Assembly (NCBI GenBank): GCA_012959995.1
Contig: DUCC01000009.1
Coordinates: forward strand, 1 to 45,798
Length of the DNA stretch: 45,798 bases
Source: Acidimicrobiia bacterium
Lineage (GTDB): Bacteria; Actinomycetota; Acidimicrobiia; Acidimicrobiales; MedAcidi-G1
Reading direction: 5' to 3'
A model generated the notes under the pieces. It was not told where the DNA came from. It saw only the letters and a program-made list of their open reading frames with translations, and searched no databases. Of the stretch, positions 11,875-29,528 are shown piece by piece (position 1 is the stretch's first letter; each line of letters opens with the position of its first letter). Made by a program: the position numbers and the translations under genes.

Positions 11875-12252
<378 letters not shown>

Positions 12253-27783: not shown

Positions 27784-27813
27784 TTGCATTGTGGAGGAAT
27801 AGTTGATTAGAGT
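27784..27813 (+). promoter_or_regulatory. Candidate promoter of mraZ
   Basis: TTGCAT (27784-27789) and TAGAGT (27808-27813) are separated by 18 bases. Both differ from consensus, and the assignment is tentative. The overlap with the MraZ boxes fits autoregulation. Confidence 0.3.
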
Positions 27814-27837
27814 GGAGCCTTGTGGGGGAAAAGGGAG
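27791..27837 (+). promoter_or_regulatory. MraZ-box repeats (operator of the dcw cluster)
   Basis: GTGGAG occurs at 27791 and 27812, GTGGGG at 27822 and AGGGAG at 27832. The last three are spaced exactly 10 bases and the first is two turns upstream. MraZ is known to bind direct G-rich hexamer repeats with about 10-base spacing in front of its own gene, so this is very probably its operator. mraZ starts 64 bases after the last repeat. Confidence 0.65.
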
Positions 27838-27900: not shown

Positions 27901-28326
27901 ATGGCCTTCGTCGGAACCTACGACCACACCCTGGACGGAAAAGGACGCTTGGTGCTCCCCGCTAAGTTCCGCAGCCATTTTGCGGACACGGCCTACCTCT
28001 CGCCTTGGGCCGGCTGCGTAGCGCTCTGGACCGCCGAACGCTTCGAAGTAATGGTGCGTCGCCTAGAAACAGAAGTAAGGGCCGGAGCCACCGACGCCAA
28101 TGTTTTGCGAGGCTTAGCGGCACGCTCTGAAGAAGTACGCCCCGATGCTCAGGGTCGCATAATGATCCCCGCTCGTTTGCAAAGCTTCGCCAAATTAGAA
28201 CGAGACCTGGTGGTTTGCGGAGCCATTGACTGGATTGAAATTTGGAACGCCCCATCGTGGGACGACATGGCCGACGACCTTGACCACTCCGTCGCCGAAG
28301 CCTTCCGCCAAGGCAGCGGAATCTAA
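27901..28326 (+). CDS. mraZ: Transcriptional regulator MraZ
   Basis: This 141-residue protein is made of two SpoVT/AbrB-like halves, each with the signature DxxGR: DGKGRLVLP near 12-20 and DAQGRIMIP near 82-90. MraZ forms a ring-shaped oligomer that binds repeats upstream of its own operon and represses it. GAGAGGAG precedes the ATG. It is the first gene of the division and cell-wall cluster, but a 224-base structured gap separates it from rsmH. Confidence 0.95.
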   Translation: MAFVGTYDHTLDGKGRLVLPAKFRSHFADTAYLSPWAGCVALWTAERFEVMVRRLETEVRAGATDANVLRGLAARSEEVRPDAQGRIMIPARLQSFAKLERDLVVCGAIDWIEIWNAPSWDDMADDLDHSVAEAFRQGSGI

Positions 28327-28394
28327 ACCGAGACAGAAAGGGCACCCCAAGGCAGCAACACCGACCAAAGAACTGGGAAACGGCCCGGTCCGAA

Positions 28395-28508
28395 CATTGA
28401 CAGTCCTTCGATCGGCAGGACGGGAGGCCCCTACTCCGCCCGCTTGCCGTCCAGCCCGATCAGGAGAGACAACCCGACGGGCGTTCGCTGGTCGAGGGAC
28501 TGTCAATG
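28395..28508 (+). ncRNA. Structured leader upstream of rsmH, candidate mraW RNA motif
   Basis: A 12-bp perfect stem (28395-28406 with 28497-28508) closes a three-way junction. Arm one has GATCGG 28410-28415 pairing with 28456-28461, then GGACGG 28418-28423 with 28447-28452. Arm two has CGAC 28475-28478 with 28491-28494 and GCG 28481-28483 with 28486-28488. A conserved structured RNA, the mraW motif, is known upstream of mraW (rsmH) in Actinobacteria, and both position and phylum match. I could not compare it with the published consensus, so identity with that motif is inferred. It is likely a cis-regulator of the downstream genes. Confidence 0.7.
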
Positions 28509-28550
28509 GGCGGGCTTGTTGCCCCCGGTCTTTCGAGGAGCCAACGCATC

Positions 28551-29528
28551 ATGAGCACTCTTTCCCCCTCCGAAGCATTTTTGCATCAGCCCGTGATGCT
28601 GAAAGAAATTTGCCAAGCTCTTGACCCCGCACCCAGCGGCGTTATTTTAGATGCCACCTTGGGCGGTGCCGGGCACGCCAGCGCACTACTTGAACAACGT
28701 CCCGATTGGACCTTGCTGGGTTTAGACCGTGATGCCGTAGCCCTTAAAGCAGCAGCCGAACGATTGGCCCCCATGGCCGAGCGCACCACCTTGCACCAAG
28801 CGACCTTCGCCGAACTAGGCAACGTGATGGACCAGTTAGGCATTACGGAACTTTCTGGATTCCTCTTTGACCTCGGGGTGTCTTCGCCGCAACTCGACCA
28901 CGCCGACCGGGGTTTTAGTTTTCGCCACTGCGGGCCGCTGGATATGCGAATGGATCGCCGCCAAGATCTGACCGCCCACAAAATTGTCAACGAGTACCCG
29001 GCAGACCAGTTGTCTCAAGTCCTCTATCGCTATGGGGATGAACGCTTCTCTCGTCAAATAGCGGCCGCCATAGTAAGCAACCGCCCCCTCGAAGACACCG
29101 CAACCCTGGCCGACGTTATTAAAGAAGCGATTCCCGCTGCGGCACGTCGCAAAGGCGGCCACCCCGCTAAACGTACTTTTCAAGCACTTCGCATTGAAGT
29201 AAACGGTGAGCTGGCGCAAATCGAACCAGCCCTCCAAACAGCGATCAAGCGGCTTCGCCCCGGTGGGCGAGGAGCAGTTTTGTCTTACCACTCCGGTGAA
29301 GACCGTCTGGTAAAAAAAACCTTTGTGAACGCCTCTACCGGCGGGTGCCAATGCCCGGCACAACTGCCCTGTGGCTGCGGCGCACAACCTTTGGTCCGCT
29401 TACTGCGGCGAGGCTCGGTCACCCCCACGGAATCCGAAAAACAAGTCAACCGGCGGGCGGCCAGCGCCCGGCTTCGCACCGTTGAACGACTCAAAACGAA
29501 AGAAGTAATTCATCATGACGGCAATTAA
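28551..29528 (+). CDS. rsmH: 16S rRNA m4C1402 methyltransferase RsmH
   Basis: This 325-residue SAM-dependent enzyme (formerly MraW) methylates N4 of C1402 in 16S rRNA. It opens with HQPVMLKEI, has the SAM motif DATLGGAGHA, LDRDAVAL, the FDLGVSSPQLD catalytic region, and DMRMD. Near the end a Cys cluster (GGCQCPAQLPCGCG) is present, as in many relatives. The ATG at 28551 has GAGGAG 9 bases before it; an earlier in-frame ATG at 28506 lies within the RNA stem and is unlikely. It overlaps ftsL by 14 bases. Confidence 0.95.
   Translation: MSTLSPSEAFLHQPVMLKEICQALDPAPSGVILDATLGGAGHASALLEQRPDWTLLGLDRDAVALKAAAERLAPMAERTTLHQATFAELGNVMDQLGITELSGFLFDLGVSSPQLDHADRGFSFRHCGPLDMRMDRRQDLTAHKIVNEYPADQLSQVLYRYGDERFSRQIAAAIVSNRPLEDTATLADVIKEAIPAAARRKGGHPAKRTFQALRIEVNGELAQIEPALQTAIKRLRPGGRGAVLSYHSGEDRLVKKTFVNASTGGCQCPAQLPCGCGAQPLVRLLRRGSVTPTESEKQVNRRAASARLRTVERLKTKEVIHHDGN

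Follow-up and report, generated by a model that had tools for sequence, protein, structure and literature searches.

A conserved three-way-junction RNA in the mraZ-rsmH gap of Acidimicrobiia as a candidate leader of rsmH

In the window (i.e. the whole stretch of DNA that was analysed, 45,798 nucleotides of the Acidimicrobiia bacterium contig DUCC01000009.1), mraZ and rsmH are separated by a gap that holds a real and strongly conserved folded RNA (positions 28395-28508), which we file as a cis-regulatory leader that occupies the place of the mraW RNA without belonging to it, and which probably controls the amount of RsmH made. The predicted fold of this segment is a three-way junction (minimum free energy, MFE, -67.4 kcal/mol; z -7.2), as compared to a mean of -40.1 kcal/mol (sd 3.8) for its dinucleotide shuffles, none of which (0 of 200) was as stable as the native sequence. 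A preliminary description, made from the sequence alone, had proposed a three-way-junction RNA between mraZ and rsmH, and sequence, fold and coordinates all agree with it: the gap that it gave as 224 bases does measure 224 nt (from the mraZ stop at 28326 to the ATG at 28551), its two internal hairpins are present in the MFE fold, and its perfect closing stem of 12 bp corresponds to the outer, Watson-Crick part of a stem (P1) that we refine to 22 contiguous pairs, the 10 inner ones including three G-U (Table 1).

Table 1. Features in and around the mraZ-rsmH gap (positions within the window)
Feature	Position	Strand	Evidence
mraZ	27901..28326	+	PF02381 E 4.4e-25, above cut-off
Whole three-way-junction RNA	28395..28508	+	MFE; model R1 114.6 bits
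Closing stem P1, 5' arm, 22 nt	28395..28416	+	MFE fold, covariation
Hairpin 1 (P2), 13-nt conserved loop 28429-28441	28418..28452	+	MFE fold, covariation
Conserved core ACTCCGCCCGCTT; C28439 stands at C1402	28433..28445	+	conservation, 16S match
Hairpin 2 (P3), least conserved part	28454..28482	+	MFE fold
Closing stem P1, 3' arm; contains GAGGG 28494-28498 and ATG 28506-28508	28487..28508	+	MFE fold
Alternative in-frame rsmH start codon within P1	28506..28508	+	ORF 28506-29528; +2 position in relatives
Shine-Dalgarno-like GAGGAG, 10 nt 5' of ATG 28551	28535..28540	+	sequence
rsmH (mraW), 16S rRNA C1402 N4-methyltransferase	28551..29528	+	TIGR00006 E 2.1e-96; PF01795

The neighbouring genes were assigned by profile. 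RsmH scores 323 bits with TIGR00006 (cut-off 154), the mraZ product is recognised by Pfam while the NCBIfam MraZ models score below their own cut-offs, and rsmH is followed by ftsL (below cut-offs), a gene for an FtsI-kind transpeptidase (Pfam), murE and mraY. Upstream of mraZ (27791-27826) stand the repeats GTGGA, GTGGA and GTGGG (the second and third, at 27812-27826, spaced by 10 nt), which we take to resemble the boxes of MraZ autoregulation; one match was found versus 0.5 expected by chance, which is weak by itself. A Rho-independent attenuator or terminator was rejected, as no terminator-like site (a GC-rich hairpin with a run of U behind it) was found in 28200-28700. At Rfam gathering scores the only match in the window is a bacterial class A RNase P RNA (11876-12247, minus strand, 247 bits), and no Rfam 15 family covers 28395-28508; five weak matches in the gap at E<=10 (mir-341, scr5239 and others) lie far below gathering scores, and none of them is the mraW RNA.

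The conservation of the fold was assessed in an alignment (A1) of 28 sequences hand-picked from 39 delimited loci (omitting the divergent L038, L044, L049 and L050, the mis-delimited L032, and L006, L009, L022, L027, L040 and L046, six close relatives of included rows). In A1, 94.8% of the cells are paired, and both partners have changed in 105 cells; such compensatory changes affect 22 of the 28 consensus pairs, a number equalled in 0 of 500 shuffles, none of which reached any of the five measures taken, and when the partners were slid the pairing dropped to 31-50%. The closing stem, in which the preliminary description would have taken a lack of compensatory changes among relatives as evidence against the RNA, carries both-side changes at 15 of its 18 modelled pairs, and hairpin 1 at 5 of 8. 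A larger alignment (A4, 89 sequences out of the 117 loci that the model matched) shows both-side changes at 27 of 28 pairs, although it was fitted to the model and hence leans to it; it omits 13 loci (L006, L009, L016, L038, L044, L049, L108, L113, L126, L137, L149, L156 and L159) and another 15 (L041, L177-L179 and L181-L191). P1 extends across loci to a median of 18, and up to 32, contiguous pairs (G-U allowed). As a conserved element hairpin 2 is weakly supported: it has 2 pairs only in the consensus, and in 102 of 116 loci its segment can form a fold of 4 bp or more, by a lax test that had no control. Since the loci are related, and some near-identical, counts across them are not independent; L041 (N run) was excluded from the start-codon and stem counts, and L034 (rsmH beyond the sequence piece) from the 115 loci used for start codons.

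A covariance model of the element (R1, with the window locus L002 as a seed) scores that locus far higher in sense than in antisense (23.1 bits), and it matches 154 of the 296 genomes of the class, in 98 of 148 genera (E<=0.001), which is a lower bound because L264, L350 and L351 have the element in genomes that R1 did not list. Across the phylum 11 of 292 genomes were matched, all 11 within Acidimicrobiia, the class of the window, and the gene context was checked for 117 loci with an R1 match. DNA similarity likewise places the element before rsmH in relatives from the same family and order, and many of the folded gaps of relatives, among the matches listed, have the same architecture. When 84,980 named genomes were scanned with an exact-sequence pattern of hairpin 1, 81 stretches were found (partly from genomes that supplied the pattern), 73 of them flanked by an upstream mraZ and a downstream rsmH that share one strand; the other eight have either rsmH only (2) or mraZ only (6), and there the sequence ends 2-308 nt away on the unseen side. 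By label, 70 of the 81 are actinobacteria (unspecified or of the Acidimicrobiia type), 5 are given as a bacterium without further specification, 3 as Bifidobacterium breve and 3 as Acidobacteria. The six MAGs behind the last two labels (L280, L299, L323, L283, L292 and L325) have the same mraZ-RNA-rsmH arrangement, and their labels are probably wrong. A stricter motif search found one copy each in 11 of 148 genomes of the class (4 genomes with the reversed-pattern control) and in 3 of 149 genomes across the phylum, all three in the class (control 5 genomes).

Outside the class we surveyed stretches upstream of rsmH (47 stretches, 45 of them from outside the class; 44 of these 45 were read, the 403-nt gap of L209 being omitted, and several gaps represent the last 251 nt, the mraZ stop being unplaced). 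The fold was recognised by eye in 0 of these 44, and short CTCC[GA]CC strings are nonetheless present in five (L234, L239, L252, L254 and L262). In four loci from other lineages of Actinomycetota (L197, L200, L252 and L262) the mraZ-rsmH gap seems, by eye, to encode a small membrane protein. Within the family of the window, one genus (L007, L010, L011, L013, L018 and L023) is without the RNA (the model finds nothing there at E<=5), with gaps of 115-121 nt in the five loci read; we consider this genus a natural loss that offers a comparison.

The position of P1 relative to rsmH is informative about what the RNA may do. When ATG/GTG codons were counted per offset from the modelled RNA end in the 115 loci with rsmH in view, an in-frame one was found at +2 in 30 loci (the next best offset reached 10 loci), so that stem and start codon overlap there; these loci span at least 10 families (f4, f8, f11, f12, f15, f16 and f22-f25). 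Behind the G-rich tract of the P1 3' arm, 26 of the 30 open an RsmH N-terminus with the H.PV-like motif within 25 residues (by eye; e.g. MSQDFEHRPVM, MSQVFEHEPVM and MAQEFTHQSVLL), and the remaining four (the window, L003, L045 and L139) have no immediate RsmH-like N-terminus. Short forms of the RNA were seen in 13 loci (<85 nt, i.e. 73-79 nt: L177-L179, L181-L185 and L187-L191), in which hairpin 2 is, by length, missing or much reduced; 11 of the 13 carry the in-frame rsmH start at +2, and L350 and L351 resemble them by eye. As P1 covers the rsmH start region in these 30 of the 115 loci, the anatomy points more narrowly at rsmH than at the balance between MraZ and the cell-wall enzymes, which the preliminary description had suggested as something that the RNA could set.

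We propose, with a probability of about 0.5, that the RNA is a cis-acting leader controlling rsmH translation, the loop of which binds a trans-acting factor. The element, most likely co-transcribed with both mraZ and rsmH, would place P1 over the rsmH start region in some lineages and just before the start in others, and P1 would keep initiation low; the loop of hairpin 1 may act as the docking site for a factor that sets how often P1 blocks rsmH. The single transcript, the control at the level of translation and the proteinaceous nature of the ligand are what we infer from this arrangement, and the strength of P1 (with its median of 18 contiguous pairs) favours a mechanism based on a protein or on processing over a small-molecule switch. 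On the other hand, this same strength makes switching hard, the in-frame +2 start occurs in only 30 of the 115 loci (4 of them without a clear RsmH N-terminus), and in the window itself, although GAGGG stands 7 nt ahead of the in-frame +2 ATG at 28506, the ATG at 28551 with its GAGGAG is the more ordinary start.

RsmH methylates C1402 of the 16S rRNA, and the hairpin-1 loop was compared with that molecule. Loops were located by a pattern containing CTCC[GA]C, which fits 116 of the 117 loci (so that the selection costs one row); the 96 distinct loops have the core ACUCCGCCCGCUU, with C-U-C-C-R-C-C in 96 of 96 (R stands for G in 87 of them and for A in 9). The window loop ACUCCGCCCG (28433-28442) agrees in 9 of 10 bases with positions 1396-1405 of the E. 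coli 16S rRNA, in the region around C1402, which is its best 10-mer match in the whole E. coli molecule; a search for 16S rRNA in the window's own genome found none. Among 5000 mononucleotide-shuffled loops, 89 reach at least 9 matches within the 31 nt around C1402, and the longest exact run in that region (7) is equalled by 230 of 5000. Taken as a suggestive likeness, found post hoc and in part contradicted, it would make RsmH the leading candidate for the bound factor, a proposal that we make tentatively and rate as unlikely: as the loop copies 9 of the 10 bases at the site of its rRNA substrate, RsmH in excess would bind to its own leader and thereby repress it, in the manner of free ribosomal proteins. 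The loop would then be an rRNA decoy for self-regulation, doubtful to the same degree, which copies the decoding-site sequence around C1402, is perhaps itself methylated by RsmH, and would make rsmH and the division operon respond to how many unmethylated 30S subunits are available. Against RsmH as the ligand, the loop has a U opposite A1398 in 116 of the 117 loci, and this near-invariance (higher than that of the G at the G1401 position) weakens the idea of a mimic; moreover, an A replaces G1401 in 9 of the 96 distinct loops, a genus with small genomes (1.3-1.9 Mb; L036, L039, L040, L046 and L047) has the diverged loop CCUCCUCCACCUCCUCC, and the loop of the mraW RNA itself reaches only 7 of 10 with the C1402 region. 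RsmH and RsmI are furthermore reported, in the part of the source available to us, to be active on 30S subunits and not on protein-free 16S rRNA (PMC5053481).

Other uses of the loop were tried and rejected. A pseudoknot between it and the flanks could form 8 pairs (G-U allowed) in the window, and across loci there is no excess over shuffled flanks (downstream mean 5.51 versus 5.40 in 115 loci; upstream 4.79 versus 5.04 in 114). Kissing of the loop CUCC with a GGAG of hairpin 2 was dismissed by eye, because CUCC persists in relatives that have no GGAG, and so was a peptide-coding loop, because the changes show no preference for third codon positions.

The main rival explanation, unlikely in our estimate, is that RNase III cuts the long P1, so that the mraZ mRNA is separated from the rsmH-fts mRNA and the start site of rsmH becomes free. 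The length of P1 (up to 32 contiguous pairs) would suit the enzyme, but to our knowledge its sites need no conserved hairpin loop such as that of hairpin 1. Cleavage of the mraZ mRNA by RNase III is indeed reported for C. glutamicum (Maeda 2016, as cited in the portions of PMC8247434 and PMC7205459 available to us), although the cut described there falls in the coding region and in a different organism. We regard as improbable a sensor of ribosome methylation, in which the stem over the start would tie rsmH translation to 30S subunits already methylated at C1402. It would accord with the 30 of 115 loci whose rsmH start is located at the stem, and with a 2026 preprint on B. subtilis, in the available part of which a lack of MraW methylation is reported to lower the translation efficiency of mRNAs that have stem-loops on or close to their start codon (PMC13317604). 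Such a sensor would nevertheless mean positive feedback on rsmH, and it leaves the conserved loop unexplained. A three-way junction with a conserved loop ahead of a cell-wall operon, with a P1 that in some loci extends to the start codon, also recalls a small-molecule riboswitch (e.g. for a cell-wall precursor) with P1 as its expression platform; this we hold to be decidedly improbable, since P1 is much longer than the switching stems of the riboswitches familiar to us, the conservation is located in a hairpin loop, and the short forms seem to be without hairpin 2 and thus without a junction. A small RNA that is released to act in trans might be expected to have the compact stable fold and exposed C-rich loop seen here, yet it is very improbable given that the element adjoins mraZ and/or rsmH in 81 of 81 stretches and that stem and start codon are adjacent in 30 of the 115 loci.

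Least probable of all is a divergent member of the Rfam mraW family. The preliminary description had matched the RNA to the mraW RNA motif by its position and phylum and had suggested a search with the Rfam model; of this, the position directly upstream of rsmH stands, the occurrence in Actinomycetales does not fit, and the identification itself fails. RF01746 gives no match at E<=10 in 28250-28650, short of the covariance model score of at least 50 bits taken for membership, and matches 0 of 61 genomes (the window's own and 60 relatives) in a search that detects C. glutamicum among 14 controls; across the phylum it matched 19 of 296 genomes, 13 of them above the cut-off. The architecture differs as well, the mraW RNA being one long hairpin, the apical loop of which reads CACUUCCCCG in the RF01746 consensus and ACUUCCCC in the seven alignments listed. 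In favour of a distant kinship are the identical gap and phylum, the C-rich apical loop and a nominal agreement of the two loops at 7 of 10 positions; forms intermediate towards the mraW RNA were not recognised by eye in other classes among the rsmH upstream stretches read. A literature search, weak insofar as subscription papers lay mostly outside its reach, found no report of an acidimicrobial mraZ-rsmH RNA.

As a leader that would control the translation of rsmH, the RNA may be compared with three known systems. The autoregulatory leaders of ribosomal proteins (e.g. S15) are structured, lie at the start site and possibly mimic the rRNA on which the protein acts. By analogy, the acidimicrobial RNA would share the structured leader, the location at the start site and a putative rRNA mimicry, and would differ in that the encoded protein is an rRNA methyltransferase whose binding to the leader is putative. 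Were the loop a decoy for RsmH, the question of why the division cluster includes an rRNA methyltransferase could be tested directly, and the expression of division genes could depend on how far ribosomes have matured. With the cmpA and isp mRNAs of B. subtilis it may have in common a stem in the start region and an involvement of C1402 methylation, although these are other genes and the available part of the preprint does not mention a three-way junction (PMC13317604). With the mraW RNA, which is listed for Actinomycetales in the accessible text of PMC2864571 and reported for C. glutamicum and C. diphtheriae, close to where mraW transcription starts, in that of PMC3890552 and PMC5784534, it shares the mraZ-rsmH gap, the phylum Actinomycetota, a long stem and a C-rich apical loop; it is set apart by its three-way junction, by the conserved letters of its loop and by R1 matches that all fall in Acidimicrobiia. 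Two lineages have therefore placed structurally different RNAs at the same site, between mraZ and rsmH.
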